Source: a bacterium
GTDB taxonomy: Bacteria; Oederibacteriota; CAKKQC01
Assembly: GCA_919901855.1 (NCBI GenBank)
Contig: CAKKQC010000033.1
Coordinates: forward strand, 1-45,980
DNA: 45,980 bases
Direction of reading: 5' to 3'
In this document: positions 15,011-45,980 of the stretch, piece after piece
Layout of the letters: every line of letters begins with the position of its first letter
Position numbering within the stretch: position 1 is the first letter of the stretch
Notes under the pieces: model-generated
The model's input: only the letters and a program-made list of their open reading frames with translations
Told to the model about the DNA's origin: nothing
Database searches by the model: none
Translations under genes and position numbers: made by a program

Positions 15011-16057
15011 TCAGAGATCCGGCCAGGTGAACAGCGGGACAGGGCGACGGGAGGGGCGGAGCCACCCGGGCGAATCCGGCCGCGCGACCTCCTCCTCGGT
15101 GGGGAAGAGGAGCCGGTCGCGCTTCACCCGCCAGTCGAGCCACGCCAGGGTCAGCGCGAACCGGTGCTCGAAGGCCACCCCGCCCACGGGGCTGCGGGCG
15201 AAGGCGTAGTCGAGCCGCACGCCGTACCATTTTCCAACGACCGCGCGCGCGCCGAACCCGGTGGCGAACAGGCCGTCCCGCAGTCCCGCCCGGAAGGTGA
15301 AGGCGGGGTGGATATCCCATTCCACGCCGCCCGAGACGTGCCGGGCGTCGTCCGAGGGGCTGTCCGCCTGGAGGACCACGAGGACGGGGTTGAGGTCGAC
15401 GGCGGCGCCGAGGACGAGCGACCGGTCGAGATTGTCGGATCCTCCCGCGACCGCGGAGCCGGTCGTGTGCCACCCGAAGCTCGTGCCCGGCAGGTCGCGG
15501 GCGACGAGCGCGGCGGAGACGCGCGGCCACGGGCGGTACAGCAGCCCGCCGTCCGCGCTGAACCCGCTCGCGAAGAGGTATCCGACGGATTCCTGGAGGT
15601 AGCGGAACGAGGCGCCCACGTCGAGCGCGGGGAACAGGCGGGCGCCGAGGGCGCCCGTGTAGACCTGGGCGGAGGCCTGCTCGACGCTTCCGGGGGTCAG
15701 GGTGTTGGCCTGCCGGAACTCGACCTCGCCGAGGTTGCGCGAGAAGATCGCGACGCCGACCACGAGCTCGGGGGTCACCCAGCCCGCCACCGCGGCATGG
15801 AGCTCGGATTCCCCGCCGGGCAGGAACCCGGTGTGGAACAGCCCCATCGCGGCGGGGTCCAGGGTCGCGAGCCCGGCGGGGTTGGCGACCGCCGCTGTCG
15901 CTTCGGCGTCGATGGCCGCGGTCCCGCCGCCGAGCGCGGGGGCCCGGGCGCCCAGGGGGAGTCTCGCGAAGGCGGCGGACGAGCGCGAGGGGTCTTCCGC
16001 GCGCGCTGCCGCGGCGGCCCACGCGCAGACCAGGATGGCAGCCACGGCGCGCCTCAT
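15011..16057 (-). CDS. PorV/PorQ-like outer-membrane beta-barrel protein
   Basis: A 348-residue exported protein with a signal peptide (MRRAVAAILVCAWAAAAARA) and the N-terminal signature of PorV-type barrels: LPLGARAPALGGGTAAI followed by AVANPAGLA. The rest alternates short amphipathic strands (for example YTGALGARLFPALDVGASFR), as expected for an outer-membrane barrel. In Bacteroidota, PorV is the shuttle protein that binds C-terminal signals of type IX secretion cargo. ATG 16057 overlaps the stop of the upstream TPR gene as ATGA. The operon also encodes a subtilase with an Ig-like C-terminal tail, a plausible partner. The family call is good; the cargo link is inference. Confidence 0.8.
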   Translation of the reverse strand: MRRAVAAILVCAWAAAAARAEDPSRSSAAFARLPLGARAPALGGGTAAIDAEATAAVANPAGLATLDPAAMGLFHTGFLPGGESELHAAVAGWVTPELVVGVAIFSRNLGEVEFRQANTLTPGSVEQASAQVYTGALGARLFPALDVGASFRYLQESVGYLFASGFSADGGLLYRPWPRVSAALVARDLPGTSFGWHTTGSAVAGGSDNLDRSLVLGAAVDLNPVLVVLQADSPSDDARHVSGGVEWDIHPAFTFRAGLRDGLFATGFGARAVVGKWYGVRLDYAFARSPVGGVAFEHRFALTLAWLDWRVKRDRLLFPTEEEVARPDSPGWLRPSRRPVPLFTWPDL

Positions 16058-16881
16058 CGGGGCCGGTCCCCCGGCCGGTCCGCCAGCGCGGCGGCCTCGC
16101 CGTTCCCGGGATCCCGGTCGAGCGCGCGCCGGGCGCACGCGGCGGCCCGCGCCCGCTGGCCGGCCCGGTCGAGCGCGCGCGCCGCCTTGAGCCAGCGGGG
16201 CGCCGAGCCTTCATCCAGCCCGGCCGCGATCTCGAAGGCGTTGGCGGCCATCCCGGGGCGCTTCGTGGCGGCGAAGAGGTCGCCGAGCCGGTCGTGGATC
16301 TCGGCGTTGTCCCCCGCGCACCGCATCGCCCGTCCCAGCGCGCGTTCCGCGGCGGCGGGGTCCCCGAGCCGGCGGTCCGCTTCGGCGAGGCGGGTCCACA
16401 GCCCCGCCAGCCCCGGCGCGGCGTCGAGGGCCGCCTGCCAGGCGGCCTTCGCCTCGCGCACCCGGCCGGCGGCGAGCAGGGCGTCCCCGGGCCTGGTCAG
16501 CTCGACGAGCCCGGGAGGCTCGTCCAGCCCGATGACCCGCGCGACGCCGGGCCGGCGGGAGAGCCTTACTTCCCTCGCGTCGCGGCCGGGCCGCGCGCAA
16601 CGCCGCCAGAGCTCCAGGTAGTTGTCGCTGGAAGCCGGCGTCCACGCCGGCGGGGGAAGGCACGGGGCTTCCGTCCGGATCGCGCCGATGCCGAGGGCGG
16701 CGAGCCGCTGGCGCAGTTCGACGACGTCCCGGGACCTCGAGGCGAGGTCGCGCAGGGTCGCGGCCTCGCGCGGCAGGACCAGCGCCCGGGCGGGCAGGAG
16801 GACGCGGCGGAAACTCCAGGCACCGGCGGCCGCCGCGAGGCAGAGCGCGATCAGCGCGCGACGACGATGCGCTTTACGCAC
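16054..16881 (-). CDS. TPR-repeat protein with N-terminal signal or anchor
   Basis: A 275-residue protein. A basic N-terminus (MRKAHRRRALIALCLAAAAGAW) forms a signal peptide or membrane anchor. The C-terminal half (about 140-265) holds tetratricopeptide repeats such as GRVREAKAAWQAALDAAPG and GDPAAAERALGRAM. The only reasonable start is GTG 16881, which overlaps the end of the subtilase gene by 31 bases. The middle region (about 30-130) has no recognised domain. It is sandwiched between the subtilase and the PorV-like barrel and could be an accessory factor. Confidence 0.7.
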   Translation of the reverse strand: MRKAHRRRALIALCLAAAAGAWSFRRVLLPARALVLPREAATLRDLASRSRDVVELRQRLAALGIGAIRTEAPCLPPPAWTPASSDNYLELWRRCARPGRDAREVRLSRRPGVARVIGLDEPPGLVELTRPGDALLAAGRVREAKAAWQAALDAAPGLAGLWTRLAEADRRLGDPAAAERALGRAMRCAGDNAEIHDRLGDLFAATKRPGMAANAFEIAAGLDEGSAPRWLKAARALDRAGQRARAAACARRALDRDPGNGEAAALADRPGDRPR

Positions 16882-18407
16882 GTGGTTGATCCCACCCTGA
16901 TGCGGGCGACGTAAACGCCGTTGGCGAGCTGGCGTCCCTTCGTATCGTTCCCGTCCCAGCGCAGGGGCGAGTTGTAGTAGAGGTCGAGGCCGGAGGTCTC
17001 GGCGGCCGAGAGCGCCTTCGTCCAGACCAGGGTTCCCGTGACGTCCCGGATCTCGATCGAGATCGGCTGGCCGGCGCCGGCCGGGATCACGAACGTCGTG
17101 TGCCGCTGGAGCAGGGGCGAGAACGGGTTCGGGTACACCCACGCGGGGGTCCCGGTCGCGGGCGGCGGCGCCGCCTGGCCCGTGAGCGCGCGGTACATGT
17201 TGATCCGGCCGTAGCCGTAACCCGGCGTCCAGCCCGTAACTCCGCCGGCCGGGTCGGCGGTCTGCTCGATCAGGCTCACGATCGAATCGGGCGTGCCGGC
17301 GGGATTCACGCCGAGCAGCACCGCGGCGAGCCCCGAAACCATGGGGGCCGCGAACGAGGTTCCGGCCTCGGTTCCCCACCCGGCGGGGAAGGCGAAGTTG
17401 TCGCATACTTGCGAAGTCAGGATGGCGACGGTCATGTCGTAATCGGAGTTACACGACGAGACCCCCGTCCCGCCGGGGGCGACGACGTCCATGGCGGTTC
17501 CCCGGTTCGAGTAGGCCGTGAGCTGGTCATTGCGGTCCGTCGCGCCGACACCGAGCACGTGGGGGTAGCCCGCCGGGAAGGACGTGTTGGTGGTGCCCTC
17601 GTTGCCCGTGGCGGCGACGAGGACGCAGCCGAGCGACCAGGCCTGCTGCATCGTGGCCGCACCGGAGGACGTGCCGGGGTCGCAAACAAGAGTGACGGGG
17701 TCGCAGGAGCCCAGGCTCATGTTGATCACGCGGGCCCCGTGGCGCGCGGCCCAGAGGACGCCCTTGTCGATGTCGAACTCGGTGCCTTGGCCGGTCGCGT
17801 CGAGCACTTTGACCGCCATGAGCATGGCGTCCCAGGCGACGCCCGTGATCCCGGCCTTGTTGTTCGAGGCGGCCGCGGCCACCGACGCGACGCCGGTCCC
17901 GTGTCCGTTGTCGTCCTCGGGCGCGCTGCCGGGCGAGAGGATGTTGGTCCCGGTCACGAGCTTGCCCGCGAAGTCCGGGTGGGCCGACTGGATTCCCGTG
18001 TCCACGATCGCGATCGTGATCGCGGCGGAGCCCGTGGATCCCGGGATGCTGGACCCCCAGCACTGGGACGCGCTGATCCGGTCGAGCGACCACTGGATGG
18101 GAAAGTACGTGTCGGTGGGGAAGCCCTTGGCCCGGAGCACTAGATTCGGCTCCGCGTAAAGGACGTTGGGGTTCCGCCCGAGCCGGTCGATCGCGGCCTC
18201 GACGGTCTGTCCCGGAGGGAGCTTGACCCGCCGCACCATGATTTCGGGCAGGCGGTCCGTTTCCCGCGCGCCCAATCCGTCCAGCGTCCGGCGGGCGTCG
18301 GCCTCCGCGACACCCGGAGCGAACCGCACCAGGATTTCGTCCGCCACGTGCCGCGCCCCGGCTGGGGGAGCCACGGCCAGCAGGAAGGCCAGCCCCAGAT
18401 ATGACAA
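16851..18407 (-). CDS. Secreted subtilisin-family serine protease with FlgD-type Ig C-terminal tail
   Basis: S8 peptidase of 518 residues: signal peptide, an I9-like propeptide (EILVRFAPGVAE...NVLYAEPN, about 22-92) and a catalytic domain (about 105-410) with Asp in IAIVDTGIQ, His in DDNGHGTGVAS, the oxyanion Asn in VAATGNEG and Ser in GTSFAAPM. The last 90 residues start with WVYPNPFSP and end with LRWDGNDTKGRQLANGVYVA, the pattern of FlgD-Ig or type IX-style sorting tails. The start is TTG 18407; the frame is closed further upstream by a stop inside tRNA-Thr, so no conventional start exists. The TTG lies one base after the tRNA, leaving no room for a ribosome-binding site. Confidence 0.9.
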   Translation of the reverse strand: MSYLGLAFLLAVAPPAGARHVADEILVRFAPGVAEADARRTLDGLGARETDRLPEIMVRRVKLPPGQTVEAAIDRLGRNPNVLYAEPNLVLRAKGFPTDTYFPIQWSLDRISASQCWGSSIPGSTGSAAITIAIVDTGIQSAHPDFAGKLVTGTNILSPGSAPEDDNGHGTGVASVAAAASNNKAGITGVAWDAMLMAVKVLDATGQGTEFDIDKGVLWAARHGARVINMSLGSCDPVTLVCDPGTSSGAATMQQAWSLGCVLVAATGNEGTTNTSFPAGYPHVLGVGATDRNDQLTAYSNRGTAMDVVAPGGTGVSSCNSDYDMTVAILTSQVCDNFAFPAGWGTEAGTSFAAPMVSGLAAVLLGVNPAGTPDSIVSLIEQTADPAGGVTGWTPGYGYGRINMYRALTGQAAPPPATGTPAWVYPNPFSPLLQRHTTFVIPAGAGQPISIEIRDVTGTLVWTKALSAAETSGLDLYYNSPLRWDGNDTKGRQLANGVYVARIRVGSTTCVKRIVVAR

Positions 18408-33275: not shown

Positions 33276-34877
33276 ATGAAACACTCCATGCGCTTCCTCT
33301 GCCTTCTGGCGGCCGGCTTTGTGGCTTCACCCGCTATTCCGGCATCGGTCCGGTATATTCCGGCCTGGGCGACCATGACCGCCGCCTTCGGCTCGACCGG
33401 CGGTTTCTTCGCGAAGGATCTCGTCCTCGATTCGCAGGGACAATTGATCGTCGCGGGCACGGGGTCCGGAGGAGGGTCCGGCGGCGCGGTGGTGGCGAAG
33501 CTCAGCCCCACGGACGGGAGCGTGATCTGGAAGTACACGGCCGGCCCGCTGGGATCGACGGCCAACGCCGTGGCCGTGGATGCGAGCGACAACGTCTATG
33601 TCGCCGGCACGGTGGGCGGGAGCGAGGGCTACATAGCCAAGATCAACTCGTCGGGGACTCCGCTCTGGACGTTCACGACGGGTGGAGGAATCGTCGGTCC
33701 CGCGGGGGCGGGGTTCAACGCCATCGCCGTGGATTCGACCGGCGTCGTCGCCGGCGGAGCCCACGGGGGCGCCACGCCCTGCTTCTTCGTCGTCAAGATT
33801 CCGGTCGCAGGCGCATGGTGGGATTCCTCTGACCCGATCCTGGGGATCGGGGCGGGCACTCTGGGCATCATCTGGACGCGCACGTGGAGTGGCGTGACCG
33901 CGGTGCCATTCGACACCAATCAAGTCAAGAGAATCGCCCTGGACTCGTCGTCGAACGTTTACGTGGCGTCGACGGACATCTCCGGCCCTCCCGGGTACAG
34001 CAACCGGATGAGCAAGTACTCGTCGACGAACGTGGTGGCGTGGTCGTTGACATCGTGGGGCTACAACGTCTGCGGTGGCGTCGGTGATGCCTCCATGAGC
34101 GGCGGCATGGGGCGGCTCCGCGTCGCTCCCGACGGGACGCTCTGGGGCGTGGCCATGAACAACCTGCACCAGTTCGACCCGGCCACTGGACTGGTCACGA
34201 AGAGCGGCATGTTCGTCTCCTCCGTCGCCGGATCAGGCCCGACGGGACTCGTGGATTTCGCCTGGTGGACCGGGGGGGTGGCGGTCTTCGCGAGTTCGAC
34301 CGTCGTCGCGGGGCGGACGACCTGGTCCTCGTGCGCCACGGGAGGGTACAGTTTCTCCTCGGCGGACGGATGGGAGGTGTCGGACTTCTCCAGCGTGCAG
34401 AGCTCCAACCTGAAGGCGGCCTTCGTGCCCGCCGCGGTCGCCCTCGGGGCGAACGGGGACGTCTTCGTCGCGGGCTCCTCGAACGGAGCGCCCGGCGGCC
34501 TGATCGTGGTGGCCCTGCGGGACGTGCTGGCGCAGAACCCGGTGAAGGCCGGGACGCTCGAGATCCGGAACAACATCATCAACCTCGGCGACAACCAGAC
34601 CGACGGCCAGCAGTACGCGCACACGGCCTACATCTTCGTGCGGGCGGGGACGGGCGCCACGGACAAGAACGTCAAGGTGTCCGTCTTCGGGCCGTCGGGC
34701 CGGTTCATGGGGCAACTCACGGGGATTACGATCGGGGCCGACGGCACCGGGAGCGTGGCTTTCGACGGCGTTGTCGAGGGCAAGCGGCTGTCGACGGGCA
34801 TGTACTACATCGTCGTAAGCGGCGCGGGCGTCAAGGACCGAAAACCCATCATGATCCTGGGAAAGAAGGACCTGTAA
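33276..34877 (+). CDS. Secreted beta-propeller protein with conserved C-terminal domain
   Basis: 533 residues with a signal peptide (MKHSMRFLCLLAAGFVASPA). The body (about 40-410) consists of propeller blades of the form DLVLDSQGQLIVAGTGSG and AVAVDASDNVYVAGTVGG, like SBBP or NHL-type repeats. The last 110 residues (about 422-533, EIRNNIINLGDNQ ... GKRLSTGMYYIVVSGAGV ... KDRKPIMILGKKDL) form an FlgD-like Ig domain shared with the protein encoded at 36282-37055. The stop overlaps the next ATG by one base (TAATG). Likely exported to the cell surface together with, or through, the barrel encoded next; that link is inference. Confidence 0.85.
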   Translation: MKHSMRFLCLLAAGFVASPAIPASVRYIPAWATMTAAFGSTGGFFAKDLVLDSQGQLIVAGTGSGGGSGGAVVAKLSPTDGSVIWKYTAGPLGSTANAVAVDASDNVYVAGTVGGSEGYIAKINSSGTPLWTFTTGGGIVGPAGAGFNAIAVDSTGVVAGGAHGGATPCFFVVKIPVAGAWWDSSDPILGIGAGTLGIIWTRTWSGVTAVPFDTNQVKRIALDSSSNVYVASTDISGPPGYSNRMSKYSSTNVVAWSLTSWGYNVCGGVGDASMSGGMGRLRVAPDGTLWGVAMNNLHQFDPATGLVTKSGMFVSSVAGSGPTGLVDFAWWTGGVAVFASSTVVAGRTTWSSCATGGYSFSSADGWEVSDFSSVQSSNLKAAFVPAAVALGANGDVFVAGSSNGAPGGLIVVALRDVLAQNPVKAGTLEIRNNIINLGDNQTDGQQYAHTAYIFVRAGTGATDKNVKVSVFGPSGRFMGQLTGITIGADGTGSVAFDGVVEGKRLSTGMYYIVVSGAGVKDRKPIMILGKKDL

Positions 34878-36277
34878 TGCGCGCCGTGCGCTCCCTAGTG
34901 ACGCTGTTGGCGCTGTGCCTGATCGCCACCCCGGTGCTCGCCGAAGTCGACGGGCCGACGTCCGAGTTCATCCGGGCCCCCATGAGCGTTCGCCAGCAGG
35001 GCGGCGGCGCCCTGTACGGCTCGACCGAGGTCTTCAAGATCTTCGCGAACCCGGCCCTCCTGTCGTTCCAGGAGCGGACGTGGGAGGTCGGCACGAGCGA
35101 CATGATCCTCTGGGGCGGGGCGGAGAACTACTTCTCCATCGCCGGGAGTTGGGCGGGAGCACCCGGGGACATGGGCACGTTCGGGGCCGCGGTCATGTAC
35201 CGCATGATCTCGATGGAGTCGTTCGCGGGCATGGACGTCTTCGGCAATCCGACCGGCCTCCAGGTCGAGCCCTCGGCATCGCACATCGGTGTTGCGGGAC
35301 TGTACCAGTACCAGTTCGCGAGCCTGGGCGTGGCCTTGCAGCAGGCGATGTCGACCTACGGGAATCTTCCGCAGATCAACACGAATTCCCGGACCACGGT
35401 CGACCTGGGCACGGTCATCCGGCTGGGCCGGCTCGACTTCGGGGTCTCCTACCGGATCAGCGGCGAGGCCGGGATGAGCCAGCTCGGACTGGGCGGGGCC
35501 GCGCGGTTCACCGGGTTCTTCAAGGGTTCGGTGGGCGTCGATGCGACCCTGCCGTTCGCGCCGACGGCGCAGACCGGGATCGACCAGAAGAACGTGAAGG
35601 CGTATCCGGCCGCGTTCGGGTTCGGCGCCACGTGGAACGCGCACCCGATGCTCGACGCGCGGGTGGGGACCGTGATCAACGGCTCCGACACGTCGGCCCG
35701 GGCCGGGATTTCCGCCCACTGGAAGGCCTACTCGCTCGACTACGCCATGGCCCTGCCAGTCAGCGGGCCGGGCATCGACCTCGAGATGACGCACATGATC
35801 GGGCTCGGGTGGGCGTTCGGCAAGGAACGCAAGCCCCCCGAGGCGCCCCGGTTCTTCATGAAGGCCGAGGAGCGTACGCTCGCGGTCTCGAACTTCGATC
35901 CGCAGAACGTTTCGGCGGGCGACGCGGCGGTCATCTCCGACATGCTGCGGAACCAGCTCGTCCGCGAGGGCGCCTTCAATATCGTGGAGAAGGCGAACAT
36001 GGACAAGGTCCTGGGCGAGCAGGCGTTTCAGCAGACGGGGTGCACGACGCAGGAGTGCGCGGTCAAGCTGGGCAAGATCCTGAACGTCAAGTACCTGGTC
36101 GTCGGGAGCTTCGGCAAGGCGCTGGACCAGTACGTGCTCTCGATGCGCGTGATCGACGTCGAGACCGCGAAGGCCGTCTACTCGGACGAGACCTACGGCA
36201 AGAACCTCCAGGAAATCCGGGACGGCATCACGGCGATCTCGGCCCGGCTGACCGAGGCGGTCAAGAAGGCGAGATAG
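34877..36277 (+). CDS. PorV-like outer-membrane barrel fused to a CsgG-like domain
   Basis: 466 residues. After a signal peptide (MRAVRSLVTLLALCLIATPVLA) residues about 30-315 form a PorV/UPF0164-type barrel (GGALYGSTEVFKIFANPALL near the start, then alternating strands). Residues about 332-466 form a CsgG/LpoB-like domain: [69 protein letters not shown] and [17 protein letters not shown]. CsgG forms the curli export pore in other bacteria, but the membrane-spanning hairpins of CsgG itself were not identified here. The two cysteines in CTTQEC are conserved in the paralogue and could form a disulfide. It is encoded one base-overlap after a secreted protein with a special tail. Confidence 0.82.
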   Translation: MRAVRSLVTLLALCLIATPVLAEVDGPTSEFIRAPMSVRQQGGGALYGSTEVFKIFANPALLSFQERTWEVGTSDMILWGGAENYFSIAGSWAGAPGDMGTFGAAVMYRMISMESFAGMDVFGNPTGLQVEPSASHIGVAGLYQYQFASLGVALQQAMSTYGNLPQINTNSRTTVDLGTVIRLGRLDFGVSYRISGEAGMSQLGLGGAARFTGFFKGSVGVDATLPFAPTAQTGIDQKNVKAYPAAFGFGATWNAHPMLDARVGTVINGSDTSARAGISAHWKAYSLDYAMALPVSGPGIDLEMTHMIGLGWAFGKERKPPEAPRFFMKAEERTLAVSNFDPQNVSAGDAAVISDMLRNQLVREGAFNIVEKANMDKVLGEQAFQQTGCTTQECAVKLGKILNVKYLVVGSFGKALDQYVLSMRVIDVETAKAVYSDETYGKNLQEIRDGITAISARLTEAVKKAR

Positions 36278-36281
36278 CCTG

Positions 36282-37055
36282 ATGCGCAGTTCCGCCGCGG
36301 TCCTGGTCGGCCTGGCGCTCCTGGCTCCGGCGGGCGCGATGGCCGCGATCACCGTGACGCCCGTAGTCGCGGACCCGTACGTCGCCGTCGGCATGTACTT
36401 CGCCGTCGACGTCACGCTTCGGAATACGGGCGCGGCGGCGGTCGGCATCAACCTGCCGGGTACGAACAACCTCGACCAGACGCGGATTCAGCAGTTCTCG
36501 CAGGAGAATCTGGGCGGCTCGACCGGAACCTACGAACTGGCGGCCGGGGCCGAGGTCACGGTCAGGTTCCGGTTCCTGGCCCTGCGCACGGGGCCGGCGA
36601 GCATCACCTTCATCGTGTCCCAGGCGGGCGGTGCGACCCAGCTCGGTTCCGGAGCCGTGTCGTTCACCGTCAAGGAGGCGTCCGAGGTGGTGGGGGCGAC
36701 GGCGCCCGTGAAGGGGAAGATGCAGATCCGGGGCAACATTATCCGGATGTCGAACGACGGGCGGTCGACGAACCGGCAGGCATATATCATCCTGCACGGC
36801 GAGCCCGGCGGGGGTGTCAGGTTGTGGGTGTGGGGCGCCGGCCGCACGGCTCTCGGGAAGATCTCGTTCGGAGTCACGAACAACCAAATCTCCGGCAGCA
36901 ATGGCGACGGGTTCACGCTCGATGCGAACGGCTATCTCGGCATCGGGTGGGATGGGACGGTGGGCGGCAAGCCGCTCGACTCGGGCAGCTATTGGATCGT
37001 GGCTACAGGCGCGGTCCAGGACCGCAAGCCTTTCCTTATCGTGCGCCACCAATGA
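36282..37055 (+). CDS. Small secreted protein with the same C-terminal domain
   Basis: 257 residues with a signal peptide (MRSSAAVLVGLALLAPAGAMA), an Ig-like domain (about 22-135, DPYVAVGMYFAVDVTLRNTG ... GPASITFIVSQAGG) and a C-terminal domain (about 142-257, MQIRGNIIRMSND ... GKPLDSGSYWIVATGAVQDR) matching that of the propeller protein at 33276-34877. It begins four bases after the preceding stop and its own stop overlaps the next ATG as ATGA. The gene order repeats the first half of the cassette. Confidence 0.82.
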   Translation: MRSSAAVLVGLALLAPAGAMAAITVTPVVADPYVAVGMYFAVDVTLRNTGAAAVGINLPGTNNLDQTRIQQFSQENLGGSTGTYELAAGAEVTVRFRFLALRTGPASITFIVSQAGGATQLGSGAVSFTVKEASEVVGATAPVKGKMQIRGNIIRMSNDGRSTNRQAYIILHGEPGGGVRLWVWGAGRTALGKISFGVTNNQISGSNGDGFTLDANGYLGIGWDGTVGGKPLDSGSYWIVATGAVQDRKPFLIVRHQ

Positions 37056-38506
37056 ACAGGCTCACGCTGCTGGTATCCGTGATCGCCGCCGGCCTCGCCG
37101 GCGGGGCCCGGGGGGACGGGATGGCGTACGACGAGTACACGGCGATGGGGTTGAGTGCCCAGACGGAAGGCGGAGCGTCCCTCTACGGCGGCTACGACGT
37201 CTTCCGCGCGTTCGCGAATCCGGCCCTCCTCGGCTACCAGAAGCGCACGTGGGAGCTGGGGACCGCCACCGCGCTGGTGTTCGGCGGGGACGAGACCACG
37301 GGGGCGGTCGCCGCGAGCTGGGTCGGGCCCAAGACCGACTCCGGCACCTTCGGGGGCGCGCTCCTGTTGGCCACCACGGGCATGGCGTCGTTCGCCGAAC
37401 TGGATCTCTCGGGCAACGAAACCGGGGTGACCGTGTCTCCCTCGGCCCAGCAGGGCGCCGCCGCGGTCTTCTACCAGTGGAGCTTCTTCTCGTTCGGTGC
37501 CGCCCTGCACGCGGCGCGGCGCGCATACGGCGCCCTTACTCCGGCGGCAACCGGCGACGTCAACCTCGTCGATGGCGTGTCGTTCTCCTCCTTCGATCTC
37601 GGCACGGCGGTCTCGCTCGGGAAGATGGAGCTCGGTGCGGGCTACCACTTCGGGTCCATGAGCTGGATTCGTCTCGGCGGGGCCATCCGATCCGACGGAT
37701 GGTTCAAGGGGGCGCTCGGGGGCGACGCGACGATCTCCACCGGGTTGTCGTCGGAATACAAGAACCCCGGCGCGACGCCGGCGAACGGGACGGGCACGAA
37801 CCAGACCACGACGACGCCGGAGGACTGGCCGGGCCAGTTCAACATGGGGCTGACCTGGAACGCCGCCCCGTTCCTCACGGTCCGGGCCGGCGTTCGGGCG
37901 ATCTCGAACATGGAGGGCGGGCCGGAGCCGCGCGCCGGATTCACGGTGCCGTGGGGGAGCTGGACCTTCGACTACGCGTACGCGACCGGGCTCATGATGA
38001 TGGAGGGAGCGGGGGGAGCCCATTTCGTGTCGGTGACCTGGTCGGGCGGCCGGGAGCGCGAGATGCCCGCGGGGCCGCGGTTCTTCCTCAAGGCCGAGGA
38101 GCGCACGCTCGCGGTCGCGGCGTTCGAGGCGCAGGGGGTTTCCGCCACGGATGCGGCCGTCATCTCGGACATGCTCCGGAACCGGCTCATCAAGGAAGGC
38201 TCGTTCAACATCGTCGAGAAGGCGAACATGGACAAGATCCTGACCGAGCAGGCCTTCCAGCAGACGGGGTGCACGTCGAGCGAGTGCGCGGTCAAGCTGG
38301 GCAGGATCCTCAACGTCAAGTACCTGGTCGTCGGGAGCTTCGGGAAGGCGCTGGACCGCTACGTGCTCTCGATGCGCGTGATCGACGTCGAGACGGCGAA
38401 GGCGGTCTATTCGGACGAGGCCACGGGGGCGAACCTGACCGAGATCCAGGCCGGGCTCGACCAGATCGCGGCCCGGCTGACCGAGGCGGTCAAGCGGGCC
38501 AGGTAG
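37052..38506 (+). CDS. PorV-like outer-membrane barrel fused to a CsgG-like domain (paralogue)
   Basis: 484 residues; paralogue of the 34877-36277 protein. Signal peptide ([21 protein letters not shown]), barrel (about 25-330, [21 protein letters not shown]) and a CsgG-like domain (about 349-484) with [39 protein letters not shown] and [17 protein letters not shown]. The barrels have diverged strongly, while the last 400 bases of the two genes are nearly identical, which points to strong constraint or gene conversion. Last gene of the cassette; followed by a hairpin. Confidence 0.82.
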
Positions 38507-38591: not shown

Positions 38592-40466
38592 GTGAGCGCA
38601 CTGCCGTTTCTGATCGGGACCCTGGGCGTGATGATAATCGCGTACCGGTACTACGGCGCCTTCCTGGCGGCGCGCGTGGTCATGCTCGACGACCGCAGGG
38701 TCACGCCGGCGTACACGCTCCGGGACGGCACGAACTACCACCCGACGAACCGCTGGGTCCTCTTCGGCCACCACTTCGCCGCGATCGCGGGGGCGGGGCC
38801 GCTGATCGGTCCCGTCCTTGCGGCCCAGTTCGGATTCGCGCCGGGCTTCCTATGGATGGTGGCGGGCGCCGTGCTGGGCGGCGCGGTCCACGACTTCATG
38901 ATCCTGGTGGCGTCGATCCGGCGGAAGGGCCGGTCGCTGGCCGAGATCGCGCGCGCGGAGGTGAGCCCGCTGGCGGGGCTGTCCGCGTCGATCGCGATCC
39001 TGCTCATAATCATCATGGCGCTGGCCGGGCTCGGGCTCGCGGTCGTGAACTCGCTCCGCGAGAGTTCCTGGGGCACTTTCACGATCGCGTGCACGGTTCC
39101 CATCGCCCTGTTCGTGGGGCTCTGGATGTACCGGATCCGCCCCGGCCGCATCCTGGAAGCCAGCCTGCTGGGGGCGGTCGCCGTGTTCGCCGCCGTGTTC
39201 CTCGGCCACCTCGTCCCCGGGTCCCGGCTGGCCCCGTGGTTCACGCTATCCCACAACGGCATCATCGTCTCGATCGCCGTGTACGGGTTCATCGCGTCGG
39301 TCCTGCCGGTCTGGCTGCTCCTGTGCCCCCGGGACTACCTCTCGTCCTGGGTCAAGATCGGGGTCGTGCTGGCGCTAATCGTCGGCGTGGTCGTGGTAGC
39401 CCCGGTGCTCCATATGCCCATGGTCACCGAGTACGTGCATGGGGGCGGGCCTATCGTGCCGGGCCACGTCTTTCCCTTCGTCTTCATCACGATCGCGTGT
39501 GGCGCGATCTCGGGGTTTCACGCGCTCGTCGCTTCCGGCACCACGCCGAAGATGCTGGGCCGCGAGACGGACGCGCTGCCGATCGGGTTCGGCGCGATGC
39601 TGGTCGAGGGCGTGGTCAGCGTCGTCGCCCTGATCGCCGCGTGCTCGCTCCATCCGGCCGACTACTTCGCGATCAACGTGAGCGCGGAGAAGTTCGCCAC
39701 CCTGGGGCTGACGCCCGTGAACCTCGCGGACCTCTCGGCGCAGGTCCAGGAGCAGATCGCGGGGCGGCCCGGCGGAGCGGTCTCGCTCGCCGTCGGGTTC
39801 GCCCAGATCTTCGCCGGGCTCCCGGGGATGCGGGGGCTCATGTCGTACTGGTACCACTTCGCGATCATGTTCGAGGCGTTGTTCATCCTCACCACGATCG
39901 ACACCGGCACCCGGGTGGCGCGGTTCCTCCTCCAGGAGTTCGGCGGGAGGGTCTGGAAGCCGTTCGGGCGCACTGACTGGATGCCCGGCACGCTCCTCTC
40001 CTCCTTCCTGGTCGTGTTCGCGTGGGGGTTCTTCATCTGGACCGGCAGCATCTCGACGATCTGGCCCATGTTCGGCTGCGCGAACCAGCTCCTGGCCACG
40101 GTCGCGCTCGCCGTGGCGACCACCGCCCTCATCAACGCGGGGAAGGCCCGCTACGCCTGGGTCACGGCGGCCCCGTGCGCGTTCATGACCGTGACGACGC
40201 TGGCGGCCGGGTGGCTCAACATCACGGACAACTTCCTGCCCCTCGCTTTGAGGTCGCCCGAGAAGGCGTTCATGGCCTGGCTCAACACGGCACTGACAGT
40301 GGTGATGATGGCGTGCGCGGTCCTGATCCTGGTCGAGGCCGCGCGCCGCTGGTGGCGGGTGCTGGGCTCGGGGCGCCGGGTGCGGGAGCGGCTCTACGGC
40401 ACCGCCGGGGACGCCTCCGGCCGCCGGAACCGCGCCTCCGACGATCTGCCGGACCTCGAAGACTGA
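38592..40466 (+). CDS. cstA: CstA-family carbon starvation / pyruvate transporter
   Basis: Polytopic inner-membrane transporter of 624 residues; E. coli CstA and BtsT take up pyruvate and peptides. Family motifs: [110 protein letters not shown] and a C-terminal [16 protein letters not shown]. About 14-16 membrane helices. GTG 38592 is the only start matching the family N-terminus. A stand-alone gene between two surface-protein loci. Confidence 0.95.
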
Positions 40467-40697
40467 GGTGACGCCGGCCTGAGCCGGGCCTGACCAGGGG
40501 GGGGTAGATCCGCCCCTACTGTCGGGGGCGCCACCGCCCCAACGGCAATCGCGCAGTGCCGTTCCAGTATGGTTCCGTGGCCGGCACACTCCATGCACCA
40601 TGGATTCCGGATGCCTGTCTACGACCCATCCATGTTCCATATCCTTGACATCCAACCCCGGCTGCACGACGATATCAGCAGTTTCATGAGGAGCAGG
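40467..40697. other. Intergenic region with a weak promoter candidate
   Basis: This 231-base gap holds a short GC hairpin right after cstA (CCGGC-CTGA-GCCGG, 40474-40487). A consensus -35 box, TTGACA, lies at 40645-40650, but the matching -10 region (around 40669-40676, ACGATATC) is poor. No RNA gene or coding frame was recognised. ATG 40686 overlaps the Shine-Dalgarno of the chosen start at 40698. Confidence 0.4.
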
Positions 40698-43600
40698 ATG
40701 TGGGGAGCACTTCGGATTGCGGTGTCCGCCGCCTGGTTCGTACTTTCGTTGCCGATCCCTGCCGGAGCGGACGCCTGGGATCCCGGCGACGATGTCGGAA
40801 CCGGCGCGACGGTCCTGACGCTGACCACCACCTACCAGACCCATCCATCCCACACGCTGGGCGCGACGGATACGGAGGACTGGTACCAGTTCTCGGCTAT
40901 CGCGGGCTACACGTACACGTTCAATACCATGGGCGGTACGGGGAACAGTTACGGGGAGCTGTTCGCCAAGAATAATGGAACCCAGCTTCAGGTGTCGGAC
41001 GACGACAGCATGGGCGGCCAGCAGTTCGGGTTCGTCTATCTGGCGGCCAAGACCCAGGTGTACTACGTTCGCGTCATGACGAACCCGGCCGGCGGCGTCT
41101 GGTCGGGGGATCTGGCCTACTGGATCGCGTCGCCACTGGTCGGCGCCGCGGCGGTGACGCCATCGTCGGTGACGGAGGGCCAATGGATCACCGTCTCGTT
41201 CACGGTCACGAACACGGGGCCTTCCTCGATCACCGGAATCGTGCCCACCGTCATCCCGCTGCCGAGCACGGCCACGCTCACCCTGGAATCCGGCCCTGTG
41301 CCCCCGGGACCCGTCACGCTGGCTTCGGGCGCCGCCCAGACGTTCAATTGGACCTACAGCACGACCGGAAACACCTGGGCCCAGGTGATTGGGTTCGCCT
41401 TCGGGACCGACGCCGGCCTGGCGCAATCGGTGAACGGGATCGCGGTCGCTTCGTATACCATCACGGGGGCGGCGCGGCTCGCGAGCGCCCTGGCTGTCAC
41501 CCCCGATCCCGCGGCGGTGGGGAGCTGGATCCAGGTCGTGCTCTCGGTCACGAACACGGGAGGGAGGGCCGCGAACGGGGTGACGCCGGCGTTGCAGATC
41601 AACCAGGGAGGAGCCGCGCTGGTCCTCGAGGGCGGTCCGGTCCCCGCCGGTCCGCTGGTCCTTCCCCCGGGGGGCGCGCAGTCCTTCACGTGGACGTACA
41701 GCGTGTCGGGAGCCGGGACGATCTCGTTCACGGGAACCGCCACGGGGACCGATGCGGGGTCGGGGTTCGCCGTGTCCGCGGCATCGACGGTACAACTGAA
41801 CAGCACGCTGACCCTCGGGGAGGCCGTGGACAATACCCCGCTCGTCTGGACCACGGGCGGGTCCGCCAACTGGTTCCCCGAGACCGGTATCACGTTCTTC
41901 GGCGGCGACGCGGCCCAGAGCGGGGACATCGACGATTTCCAGAGCTGCTTCCTCCAGACGACGGTGACCGGGCCGGCCACCCTGACGTTCTATTGGCGGG
42001 TGGATTCGGAATTCAATTTCGATTACCTGACGTTCCTGATCGACGGGACGCCGCAGGCGGGGGCGATCAGCGGCAGCGTGGCGTGGACGCAGAAGACGTT
42101 TGCGATACCGGCGGGGGCGCATACGCTGCGTTGGCAGTACTCGAAGGACGGGAGCGTGACGACCGGGGCGGATGCGGGCTGGGTGGACCAGGTCGTCTAC
42201 GCGCCAATGATCCTGACGACCGCGCTCGCGGTCGCCCCCGCGTCGCCCGTCAGGGGACAGTGGGCGCAGGTGGTGCTCACGGTGACGAATGTGGGAAGCG
42301 CGAACGTGACCGGGGTGGTCCCCGCGATCCAGCTCAACGCCGGGGCGGGGCTGGTGGTCTATGAGAACGGTCCGTCGCCGGCCGGCCCGCTGACGATCGT
42401 CCCGGGGGCGTCCCAGAGCTTTACCTGGACGTACTCGGCGTCCGGAATCGGGATCGTGGACCTAACCGCCACGGGGAGCGGGACGGACGCGGGCACCGGC
42501 AGTCCGGCTTACGCGGCGGCGACCCGGACGATGACTATCGTGACCCCGGCGCAGTTGGCGGCCTCGCTGGCCGTCGCCCCGGCGGTGGTCCCGGCCGGCC
42601 AGTGGTTCACGGTGCGGCTGACCGTCACGAACACGGGCGGCGCCGGCGCCTCGGGGCTCATGCCGTTCATGAGCGTCAACAACGGGGCCGCCCTCGTCGT
42701 GGCGCAGGGGAGCGCGGTGCCACCGGGACCGCTGAGCCTCGCGGCGGGGGCGGCGCAGACCTTCGTGTGGACGTTCAGCGCGAGCGGGGCGGGCCCGGTG
42801 GCGTTCACGGCGACGGCGGTTGGTGCCGACGCGGTCCTTGGCACCCCGGTCGCGGCTGCCGCGACCGGCGGTGCCGCGCTCACTTCGCTTCTGGCGGTAT
42901 TGACGGCGAGCCCCGGGTCGGTCGTCACCGGCCAGTGGTTCCAGATCGCGCTCACGGTGACGAACGCGGGCGGCTTCAACGTGACCGGAGTCGTGCCCGC
43001 GGTGCAGATCAACGCGGGCTCGGCGCTCGTGGTTCCCGAGGGCGGGCCCGTGCCGCCGGGGCCGGTGACGCTCGTCCCGGGCGGGGCGCAGACGTTCGTG
43101 TGGACGTACAGCGCCTCGGGTGCCGGGACGATCTCGTTCACCGCGACGGCTGGGGGGACCGACGCCGGGTCGGGCACCCCGGTCGCGGCCGCCGGGACCG
43201 TCGCCGTGACGTCGACCACCGGGCCGACGGGCCTGCCGTTCGTGGACGATTTCAGCACCAACAAGGGGTGGACCTTCGGAACGGAATGGAGCCGGGGTTC
43301 GGCCACGACCTCGTCGGGCCAGTCCTCGGGGTTCCCCGATCCGGCGACGGACACTTCGCCGGGCGCGGACAACATGATCATCGGGGCCGTGATCGGCGGC
43401 AACATCACGACGGTGCTGCACGGGTACTACTACGCGACCTCGCCCGTTATCGACACGACGAGCGCGTCGAACCTCACGCTGACGTTCCAGCGGTGGCTGA
43501 ACTCGGACTACACGTCGTGGATGACGAACACCGTGGAGGTCTTCAACGGGGTCTCGTGGGTCACCGTCTGGATGTCCGGCGGCTCCCCGGCGGTCCAGGA

Positions 43601-45980
43601 TGCCGGATGGACGCGGCAGACGTACGATGTGAGCGCGTACGCGAATGCGGGCTTCCGGGTGCGGTTCGGGCACACCGTCGGCGCAGGCGGGGCGTGGGTG
43701 ACGTCGGGATGGAACGTGGACGACGTGATGGTGTATGTTCCCTCCCTGCGGGCGGCGGCGGCGGTCGCGCCGTCCCCGGCATTCGTCGGACAGTGGGTGC
43801 AGGTGGTGCTCTCGGCCACGAACACCGGCTCGGCCGCACTCAGCGGCGTAGCGCCGTCGCTCCAGGTCAACAGCGGCGCGGCGCTGGTCGCGTACCAGTC
43901 CGGTCCCGTGCCGGCGGGGCCGGTGGGTCTCGCGGTGGGCGCGAGCCAGGCCTTCACCTGGACGTACAGCGTGTCCGGGGCGGGCACGGTCAACCTGACG
44001 CTTTCCATCACCGGCTGGGATGCCGTGTTGGGCGGCACGACCTTTACCGCTTCCACGGTGGCGCTCACGACCATCCAGCCGGCCCGGCTCCGGGGGTCGC
44101 TGAGCGCGGTGCCCGCCACGGTGTCTCCGGGCCAGTGGACGCAGATCCGGCTGACCGTGACCAACACGGGCGGGGCCAGCGCGACGGGGGTCCTGCCCGC
44201 CCTCCAGGTCAACACCGGCGCGGGGTCCGTTGCCTACCAGTCCGGGCCGGTCCCGGCGGGGCCGGTTACCCTGGCCGCCGGAGCGGCGCAGACCTTCGTG
44301 TGGACGTACAGCGCGAGCGGGGTGGGGAGCGTGCTGTTTACCGGGACGGCCACCGGAGTGGATTCCGGCACGGGCGCGTTGCTGACGAGCACCCCGGTGG
44401 CCGCGGTCGGCCTCACCATCAACGCGCTGCGGGGCGTGGCTACGGTCGTCCCGTCCACCGCGCCGGTCGGGAGCTGGTTCCAGCTCGCCCTCACGGTGAC
44501 GAACGCGGGCGTCTCCAACGTGACCGGAGTCGTGCCCGCGGTGCAGATCAACGCGGGCTCGGCGCTCGTGGTTCCCGAGGGCGGGCCCGTGCCGCCGGGG
44601 CCGGTGACGCTCGTCCCGGGCGGGGCGCAGACGTTCGTGTGGACGTACAGCATGTCCGGCTTCGGCACGATCGCCTTCACGGCGACCGCCACCGGCACCG
44701 ACACGGGATCCGGGCTGGGGGTCTCGGTCTCCGCGTCGGCGACCGTTGCGGGCGCCCTGACGCTGGGGGAGGCGGTGGACAACGTCCCCCTGGTCTGGAC
44801 GACGGGGGGAAGCGCGAACTGGTTCCCCGAGACCGGTATCGCGTACTTCGGCGGCGACGCGGCGCAGAGCGGGGATATCATCGATTCCCAGAGCTGCTAT
44901 CTCCAGACGACGGTGGCGGGGCCGGGCACGCTGACGTTCTACTGGCGAGTTGACTCGGAGTCCGGGTTCGACTACCTGACGTTCCTGATCGACGGGACGC
45001 CGCAGGCGGGGGCGATCAGCGGCAGCGTGGCGTGGACGCAGAAGACGTTTGCGATACCGGCGGGGGCGCATACGCTGCGTTGGCAGTACTCGAAGGACGG
45101 GAGCGTGACGACCGGGGCGGATGCGGGCTGGGTGGACCAGGTCGTCTACGCGCCAATGATCCTGACGACCGCGCTCGCGGTCGCCCCCGCGTCGCCCGTC
45201 AGGGGACAGTGGGCGCAGGTGGTGCTCACGGTGACGAATGTGGGAAGCGCGAACGTGACCGGGGTGCTGCCGGCAATACAGGTCAACGCCGGGGCGGGGC
45301 TGGTGGTATACGAGAACGGTCCGACCCCGGCCGGCCCGCTGACGCTGGCCCCGGGGGCGTCCCAAAGCTTCACCTGGACGTACTCGGCGTCCGGGTTGGG
45401 ATCCGTGAACCTCACCGCCACCGGGAGCGGGACGGACTCGGGCAGCGGGAGCCCGGTCTTCAGCGCGGCGACCCGCGCGCTCTCGATCGTCCCGCCGGCC
45501 CAGTTGGCAGCGTCGCTGGCCGTCGCCCCGGCGGTGGTCCCGGCCGGCCAGTGGTTCACGGTGCGGCTGACGGTCACGAACACGGGCGGCGCCGGCGCCT
45601 CGGGAGTCATGCCATTCATGAACGTCGACGGCGGGGCCGCTCTCGTCGTGGCGCAGGGGGGCGCGGTGCCGCCGGGGCCGGTTGCGCTCGCGGCGGGGGC
45701 GGCGCAGACCTTCGTGTGGACGTTCAGCGCGAGCGGGACGGGCCCGGTGGCGTTCACGGCGACGGCGACGGGCACGGACGCGGTCCTTGGCACCCCGGTC
45801 GTCGCCGCCGCATCGGGCGGCGCGACGCTCACCTCGCTGCGGGCGGTGCTGACGGCGACCCCCGGGTCGGTCGTCACCGGCCAGTGGTTCCAGATCGCGC
45901 TCACGGTGACGAACGCGGGCGGCTTCAACGTGACCGGAGTCGTGCCCGCGGTGCAGATCAACGCGGGCTCGGCGCTCGTG
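40698..45980 (+). CDS. Giant repetitive exported adhesin-like protein, 3' partial
   Basis: The frame is open from ATG 40698 to the window end (1761 codons); it is missed by any caller that requires a stop codon. GAGGAG lies four bases upstream, a clear ribosome-binding site, and the N-terminus is a signal peptide (MWGALRIAVSAAWFVLSLPI). A pre-peptidase-C-like domain (about 28-135, TEDWYQFSAIAGYTYTFNT) is followed by at least 11 CARDB-like Ig modules of about 110 residues (GQWFQIALTVTNAGG, then GPVPPGPVTL, then AQTFVWTYSASG). Two copies of a module with SANWFPETGI and LTFYWRVDSE lie at 41806-42205 and 44757-45152, and one MAM-like jelly-roll lies at 43230-43735. Probably a long surface stalk. 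It has no recognised catalytic part; the C-terminus is unseen. Confidence 0.88.
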   Translation, partial: MWGALRIAVSAAWFVLSLPIPAGADAWDPGDDVGTGATVLTLTTTYQTHPSHTLGATDTEDWYQFSAIAGYTYTFNTMGGTGNSYGELFAKNNGTQLQVSDDDSMGGQQFGFVYLAAKTQVYYVRVMTNPAGGVWSGDLAYWIASPLVGAAAVTPSSVTEGQWITVSFTVTNTGPSSITGIVPTVIPLPSTATLTLESGPVPPGPVTLASGAAQTFNWTYSTTGNTWAQVIGFAFGTDAGLAQSVNGIAVASYTITGAARLASALAVTPDPAAVGSWIQVVLSVTNTGGRAANGVTPALQINQGGAALVLEGGPVPAGPLVLPPGGAQSFTWTYSVSGAGTISFTGTATGTDAGSGFAVSAASTVQLNSTLTLGEAVDNTPLVWTTGGSANWFPETGITFFGGDAAQSGDIDDFQSCFLQTTVTGPATLTFYWRVDSEFNFDYLTFLIDGTPQAGAISGSVAWTQKTFAIPAGAHTLRWQYSKDGSVTTGADAGWVDQVVYAPMILTTALAVAPASPVRGQWAQVVLTVTNVGSANVTGVVPAIQLNAGAGLVVYENGPSPAGPLTIVPGASQSFTWTYSASGIGIVDLTATGSGTDAGTGSPAYAAATRTMTIVTPAQLAASLAVAPAVVPAGQWFTVRLTVTNTGGAGASGLMPFMSVNNGAALVVAQGSAVPPGPLSLAAGAAQTFVWTFSASGAGPVAFTATAVGADAVLGTPVAAAATGGAALTSLLAVLTASPGSVVTGQWFQIALTVTNAGGFNVTGVVPAVQINAGSALVVPEGGPVPPGPVTLVPGGAQTFVWTYSASGAGTISFTATAGGTDAGSGTPVAAAGTVAVTSTTGPTGLPFVDDFSTNKGWTFGTEWSRGSATTSSGQSSGFPDPATDTSPGADNMIIGAVIGGNITTVLHGYYYATSPVIDTTSASNLTLTFQRWLNSDYTSWMTNTVEVFNGVSWVTVWMSGGSPAVQDAGWTRQTYDVSAYANAGFRVRFGHTVGAGGAWVTSGWNVDDVMVYVPSLRAAAAVAPSPAFVGQWVQVVLSATNTGSAALSGVAPSLQVNSGAALVAYQSGPVPAGPVGLAVGASQAFTWTYSVSGAGTVNLTLSITGWDAVLGGTTFTASTVALTTIQPARLRGSLSAVPATVSPGQWTQIRLTVTNTGGASATGVLPALQVNTGAGSVAYQSGPVPAGPVTLAAGAAQTFVWTYSASGVGSVLFTGTATGVDSGTGALLTSTPVAAVGLTINALRGVATVVPSTAPVGSWFQLALTVTNAGVSNVTGVVPAVQINAGSALVVPEGGPVPPGPVTLVPGGAQTFVWTYSMSGFGTIAFTATATGTDTGSGLGVSVSASATVAGALTLGEAVDNVPLVWTTGGSANWFPETGIAYFGGDAAQSGDIIDSQSCYLQTTVAGPGTLTFYWRVDSESGFDYLTFLIDGTPQAGAISGSVAWTQKTFAIPAGAHTLRWQYSKDGSVTTGADAGWVDQVVYAPMILTTALAVAPASPVRGQWAQVVLTVTNVGSANVTGVLPAIQVNAGAGLVVYENGPTPAGPLTLAPGASQSFTWTYSASGLGSVNLTATGSGTDSGSGSPVFSAATRALSIVPPAQLAASLAVAPAVVPAGQWFTVRLTVTNTGGAGASGVMPFMNVDGGAALVVAQGGAVPPGPVALAAGAAQTFVWTFSASGTGPVAFTATATGTDAVLGTPVVAAASGGATLTSLRAVLTATPGSVVTGQWFQIALTVTNAGGFNVTGVVPAVQINAGSALV
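42024..42317 (+). repeat. 294-bp perfect direct repeat, copy 1
   Basis: Identical base for base to 44973-45266, 2949 bases (983 codons) downstream, inside the repetitive surface protein. Flanking sequence of both copies is homologous but diverged. Confidence 0.9.
42978..43112 (+). repeat. 135-bp direct repeat within CARDB-like modules
   Basis: Matches 44517-44651 (offset 1539 bases, 513 codons) without visible differences, and its first 54 bases recur at 45927-45980. It encodes NVTGVVPAVQINAGSALVVP and following residues. Confidence 0.85.
44517..44651 (+). repeat. 135-bp direct repeat, second copy
   Basis: Second copy of 42978-43112, in a different module of the same protein, showing that the modules have been homogenised or recently shuffled. 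Confidence 0.85.
44973..45266 (+). repeat. 294-bp perfect direct repeat, copy 2
   Basis: Second copy of 42024-42317. The same 2949-base offset also relates 42921-43031 to the last 110 bases of the window, so the duplicated segment continues past the edge. Confidence 0.9.

Follow-up and report, generated by a model that had tools for sequence, protein, structure and literature searches.

The question raised by this locus is why a secreted protein with a characteristic C-terminal tail should be coupled, twice in succession, to the gene of a beta-barrel carrying an additional domain, and what each half of that fusion might do. The locus lies in the window, by which we mean the whole stretch of 45,980 nucleotides that was analysed. 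In an earlier note, made from the sequence alone, it was proposed that the barrel half resembles PorV, the receiver of cargo tails in type IX secretion, and the other half CsgG, the builder of the curli export pore, and that the two cassettes constitute a matched cargo and export system which blends both pathways.

Two coupled cassettes

The four genes (33276-38506) were confirmed and are coupled as that note had described them, in the order secreted protein, barrel fusion, secreted protein, barrel fusion. The stop codon of P1 and the start of B1 overlap by 1 base (TAATG), B1 and P2 are separated by 4 bases, and the stop of P2 overlaps the start of B2 by 4 bases (ATGA). As judged by eye, Sec signal peptides are found at the N-termini of all four products. 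The features are as follows.

33276-34877, plus strand: P1, 533 aa, secreted, SBBP beta-propeller passenger followed by a C-terminal tail
34545-34874, plus strand: P1 tail domain, type B, similar to the FlgD/type IX CTD family
34877-36277, plus strand: B1, 466 aa, PorV/FadL-like barrel fused to a CsgG/LpoB/TolB-N-like domain
34946-35836, plus strand: barrel part of B1, residues 24-320 approximately, with 14 long strands at 67-317
35846-36274, plus strand: LpoB/TolB-N-like domain of B1, predicted periplasmic, residues 324-466 approximately, with an invariant CxxxxC
36282-37055, plus strand: P2, 257 aa, secreted, short passenger followed by a C-terminal tail
36711-37052, plus strand: P2 tail domain, type B, predicted beta sandwich
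37052-38506, plus strand: B2, 484 aa, second barrel with an LpoB/TolB-N-like domain
38078-38503, plus strand: LpoB/TolB-N-like domain of B2, predicted periplasmic, residues 343-484 approximately, 80% identical to that of B1

The passenger of P1 is made of SBBP beta-propeller repeats (Pfam), and that of P2 matched zero Pfam families above cut-off. The two tails share 36% identity and the two barrels 39%, against 80% for the C-terminal domains. At the DNA level B1 and B2 share 81% identity over their final 468 bases, while most of the barrel part cannot be aligned, a likeness of the 3' ends that could reflect recent spread of the domain, gene conversion or strong constraint. The two cassettes probably originated by duplication of one, followed by a swap of the passenger. 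Downstream lies a gene at 38592-40466, and then an open frame of 1,804 codons (40569-45980, plus strand) which runs off the window.

The barrel is PorV-like

In profile searches the N-terminal half of B1 matched PorV_fam with an E-value of 5.6e-5, which is under the curated cut-off. A structure model of B1 built with 19 paralogues (pLDDT 83.6, pTM 0.65) consists of a helical N-terminal part, 14 long strands (residues 67-317) and a separate domain (334-465); since the number of strands is even, both ends of the barrel should be periplasmic. The best solved structural match of the model is PorV of the type IX translocon (6h3i_F; Z 30.0, rmsd 3.8, 284 residues), and PorV in the complex with bound RemA CTD also ranks high (8gl6_F; Z 29.8, rmsd 4.4, 290 residues). 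The proposed likeness of the barrel half to PorV is supported at the level of predicted structure.

FadL proteins come next after PorV, with a Z of 28.6, and a plain FadL channel was considered; the fold by itself cannot decide between values as close as 28.6 and 30.0. The barrels could accordingly be ordinary FadL-type uptake channels or porins, with the tailed surface proteins merely neighbours in the operon, a reading that also finds some encouragement in the UPF0164 matches of some barrels. We regard it as very improbable, as it leaves unexplained the near-constant neighbour with a CTD-like tail, the agreement of tail and barrel types, and the SprA-like gene, all of which are described below.

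The fused domain lacks the CsgG insertion

The C-terminal half of B1 matched CsgG (5e-11), LpoB (1e-8) and TolB_N (6e-5) in profile searches. The CsgG match covers only positions 40-97 of 210, whereas LpoB is covered nearly end to end (24-145 of 147), and Foldseek matched the domain to the LpoB structure 4q6z (E 8.6e-7), so that the domain has the C-terminal fold of LpoB. In the B1 model the domain groups with TolB-N, FlgT and LpoB and is of the soluble type. Aligned to CsgG chains, its profile breaks into two pieces that share a stretch of the profile. The reason is that approximately 25 residues of CsgG, flanked by the segments corresponding to 'VVGSFGK' and 'YVLSMRV', lack an equivalent in the fused domain; at this site the B1 model has a short turn. 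We read this as absence of the membrane hairpin of CsgG, and in both alignment and model the transmembrane hairpin insertions that build the CsgG pore were not found. CsgG was also not in the VIA-align table for the whole B1 model, which by itself excludes nothing.

One protein might in principle act both as a curli-like CsgG export pore and as a PorV-type receptor, and the Pfam CsgG match of B1 is what recommends that idea. Given the partial coverage of the profile, the missing residues, the short turn in their place and the TolB-N/FlgT/LpoB fold, we find this scarcely credible and rejected the pore reading.

The domain should be periplasmic because it comes after the last barrel strand, and it lacks a separate lipobox, whereas LpoB itself is a lipoprotein which activates PBP1b. 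Its fold is that of the superfamily which includes LpoB, the N-terminal domain of TolB, the middle domain of FlgT and CsgG; here the domain is placed on an outer-membrane barrel instead of on a lipoprotein. Mean identity among the fusions is 55% for the LpoB-like domain, 33% for the barrel and 32% for the tail, and CxxxxC is invariant in the domain. This constancy suggests a partner common to all fusions. Four type B barrels do not have the domain, and elsewhere TPR or OmpA modules are found instead, which argues that the fused domain is an accessory, most likely a swappable periplasmic tether. The cassettes are accordingly not a hybrid of type IX secretion and curli export, and that part of the earlier note was not borne out.

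The tails probably belong with FlgD and type IX CTDs

A profile was built on 46 paired tails and searched against all PDB sequences. It matched PorZ (2.8e-9, at the C-terminal end of PorZ), FlgD (2e-8) and the PorU CTD (3.7e-7). Member tails match FlgD_ig, CHU_C, Por_Secre_tail, TIGR04183 (20 of the 46 at E of 0.01 or lower) and the PorZ model (17 of 46), and to the type B CTD model of type IX secretion, TIGR04131, there were only weak sub-threshold matches, by P2 (0.0078) and by one of the 46. Taken alone, the tails of P1 and P2 fall short of type IX CTD models in profile searches; they are tied to the CTD family through paralogous tails such as that of L083, which matches FlgD_ig at 7.4e-15 and the P1 tail by BLAST at 1e-6. 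The model of the P2 tail is a beta sandwich with the PorU CTD among its top matches (Z 8.9, rmsd 2.2, 89 residues), a place that unrelated Ig domains share equally. By sequence, the tails appear to belong to the FlgD/type IX CTD family and to be closest to PorZ and PorU.

Pairing across the genome

The source genome (4.68 Mb in 91 contigs, 93% complete) contains 35 matches to B1, 71 matches to the PorV-family model NF033709, with at least 15 genes over the cut-off and B1 below it, and approximately 86 strong tails. The PorV-family barrel, which is the shuttle component of type IX secretion, is present by these matches and by the structural match of B1 to PorV. Pairing was counted for 63 PorV-family genes, on stretches around matches in this genome. 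A tail gene lies directly upstream on the same strand in 52 of the 63, so that the genome holds at least 52 pairs. Neighbouring genes overlap in 42 of the pairs, by 4 bases in 34 and by 1 base in 8. With some 86 strong tails and an estimated 4,000 genes approximately one adjacency is expected by chance, and the pairing is thus not accidental. The tails of the 52 pairs fall into types A (22), B (18, the type of P1 and P2) and C (12), and among the cargos of type B there are kelch, NHL and SBBP propellers. Fusions of a barrel to the CsgG/LpoB-like domain number 15, and all 15 are paired; modules on other barrels are OmpA, TPR or fn3. For approximately 30 tail genes an adjacent PorV-family gene was not found.

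Three further barrel genes have a tail gene nearby, and one such set is in the window, where a TPR-like frame lies between the two genes and overlaps the barrel gene by 4 bases (set at 15011-18407, minus strand).

16851-18407, minus strand: tail-bearing protein, type A tail, with S8 protease motifs recognized by eye
15011-16057, minus strand: PorV-family barrel

At two loci of the source genome, L103:5670-8045 and L092:3391-5457, the encoded protein (792 and 689 aa) joins a PorV-like barrel to an OmpA peptidoglycan-binding domain, and the second of these proteins itself also holds a FlgD_ig domain. Two other tail domains, G000:C40:188445-188711 and C40:121958-122221, sit in open frames of 10,753 and 6,372 codons, which may encode giant surface proteins; among the neighbours listed near these two tail domains none was of the PorV family.

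Tail and barrel lineages agree

Distances between tails and distances between their barrels are correlated over the 52 pairs (rho 0.51; standard deviation of the null 0.05, largest of 2000 shuffles 0.19), and among the 15 fusions the correlation is higher (rho 0.80, reached in 0 of 2000 shuffles). When shuffling was restricted to within tail types, 357 of 2000 shuffles reached the overall rho, an unremarkable number, and for this reason most of the overall correlation is agreement between types. Within types the correlation has p values of 0.0004 for type A, 0.0002 for type B and 0.066 for type C, and it is these tests that support the finer claim, for types A and B. In one fusion, C34:49378, a type C barrel with a type C tail carries the LpoB-like domain; here the domain was transferred, and the barrel kept its tail. 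The passengers of type B are also partly alike, with kelch and NHL repeats, so that co-duplication of cassettes contributes to the correlation, and correlated trees would arise from co-duplication of whole cassettes alone as well.

Relatives

Among named relatives the closest is a Candidatus Coatesbacteria MAG from the same family, and some members of the phylum coincide with genomes that were deposited under the names FCPU426 and Firestonebacteria. All four fusions elsewhere that have readable upstream sequence (one in Coatesbacteria, three in Elusimicrobia) stand directly after a tail gene, so that fusions lacking a tail-bearing neighbour, which the earlier note had named as grounds for refutation, were not seen among these four. 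Genes for the LpoB-like domain without a barrel in other genomes have no tail gene directly before them, except on a UBP2 contig (L155, 2-11297), where tailed genes alternate with LpoB-like-domain genes and a barrel was not detected by the model used. Pairing is looser in other families of the phylum, where among 40 PorV-family loci sampled a tail gene lies within 2.4 kb in 21 and is adjacent in 13. We found nothing relevant in the open-access literature on expansions of PorV, on fusions of PorV to CsgG or on type IX secretion in either Coatesbacteria or Elusimicrobia.

SprA and other type IX components

An SprA-like gene was identified in the source genome (G000:C23, approximately 68.2-74.1 kb, minus strand), scoring 204.8 bits summed over frame pieces with the SprA/Sov model TIGR04189, whose cut-off is 200. 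It is directly followed by a tail gene and then a PorV-family gene. Within the phylum, 39 of 44 genomes have partial matches to SprA, and every one of the 44 has PorV-family genes, with 7 to more than 40 matches each. The catalytic part of PorU was not found in the source genome, 93% complete, in a search run without a positive control; NF033707 matches the CTD part only, and Peptidase_C25 gave zero matches, under the same limits. GldM, of the PorL/PorM motor, was found in 0 of the 44 genomes, again without a positive control. Since a motor and a sortase are not demonstrated, we do not file the cassettes as a type IX system.

Comparison with known systems

Type IX secretion has been called confined to Bacteroidota (PMC12618676), and was also considered possible in other FCB phyla (PMC11285876). 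PorV is the shuttle for type A CTDs (PMC12618676). In Flavobacterium johnsoniae the gene of a type B substrate is commonly followed by that of its own PorP/SprF-like shuttle, and for the type B substrates tested the cognate shuttle was required for secretion itself (PMC12618676). It was further reported that a type B protein is linked to PorE by PorP (PMC9143113), that PorE binds peptidoglycan (PMC12618676), and that the CTD of PorZ stays on PorQ (PMC10202324).

Like the PorP/SprF pairs of F. johnsoniae and P. gingivalis (PMC12618676, PMC9143113), the cassettes have a cargo gene followed by its own PorV-like barrel gene, with many pairs per genome, one SprA and, as proposed, recognition through a C-terminal domain. 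They differ in that the barrels are of the PorV/PorQ family and the tails FlgD/type-A-like, in number (52 pairs against 12 type B substrates), in the periplasmic domains fused to barrels, and in a host outside Bacteroidota. With PorV they share the barrel fold and probably the tail family; PorV of Bacteroidota serves all type A CTDs, whereas here the lineage of each tail agrees with that of its own barrel. The likeness to PorZ and PorQ of the attachment complex lies in propeller proteins whose C-terminal domain may stay on a PorV/PorQ-family barrel; of all solved structures, PorZ is the one that the tail profile matches best. PorZ and PorQ are a single pair in P. gingivalis, engaged in LPS attachment with PorU, while here there are dozens of pairs and the catalytic part of PorU was not found. 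By analogy, the cassettes appear to repeat the cognate-shuttle logic of type IX secretion at a larger scale; the barrels used are of the PorV/PorQ family and have a periplasmic module fused to them, and the tails are type-A-like.

This likeness to PorZ and PorQ also suggests that the barrel could be mainly a static PorQ-like anchor, with one general shuttle exporting the cargo and the paired barrel dispensable for transport. The matches of member tails to the PorZ model, the retention of the PorZ CTD on PorQ (PMC10202324) and the OmpA, TPR and LpoB-like modules on barrels all fit anchoring, and the PorV-family gene beside SprA could be the general shuttle. That gene is, however, itself paired with a tail gene and is not obviously general, and the need of F. 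johnsoniae type B substrates for their cognate shuttle (PMC12618676) argues against a dispensable barrel; we consider the static anchor unlikely.

A proposed route

Gene coupling, the PorV-like predicted fold, the kinship of the tails to type IX CTDs, the SprA-like gene, the correlated phylogenies and the pairing elsewhere are what the analysis shows, and make it likely that each cassette consists of a cargo gene and its dedicated outer-membrane receptor, on an SprA-centred route that works like type IX secretion. The proposal of a matched cargo and export system is supported for its receptor half by this evidence, and not for its CsgG half. In the mechanism that we infer, P1 and P2 would be exported to the periplasm by Sec and carried across the outer membrane by SprA, where the partner barrel would capture the tail, as do PorV, PorQ or SprF. 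Because the PorU sortase was not found, the tail probably remains uncut and bound to the barrel, which would then also be a surface anchor, as PorQ is for PorZ. Most likely the barrels would be dedicated shuttles as well as surface anchors for the partner tail, acting with SprA. The LpoB/TolB-N-like domain may tie the barrel, from its last strand, to the periplasmic partner common to all fusions, perhaps the cell wall or its synthases; this is the weakest step of the proposal.

More tentatively, the cassettes might represent a distinct SprA-based type of secretion outside Bacteroidota, in which private tails are addressed to private PorV/PorQ-like receptors. Each genome would hold dozens of such pairs, PorU would not cleave the tails, the known motor might be missing, and the receptors would have diversified through exchangeable periplasmic modules (LpoB-like, OmpA, TPR). 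Should the pairs function as suggested here, a single genome would provide approximately 50 natural combinations of address and receptor, making the code of barrel-tail recognition directly testable, and would show a route from a general shuttle to a set of dedicated shuttles. SprA-type secretion would then reach lineages that were deposited under the names Coatesbacteria, Firestonebacteria, FCPU426 and Elusimicrobia. What is seen here is probably type IX secretion in a version with many receptors, in a bacterium that is not of the group in which that pathway was studied.
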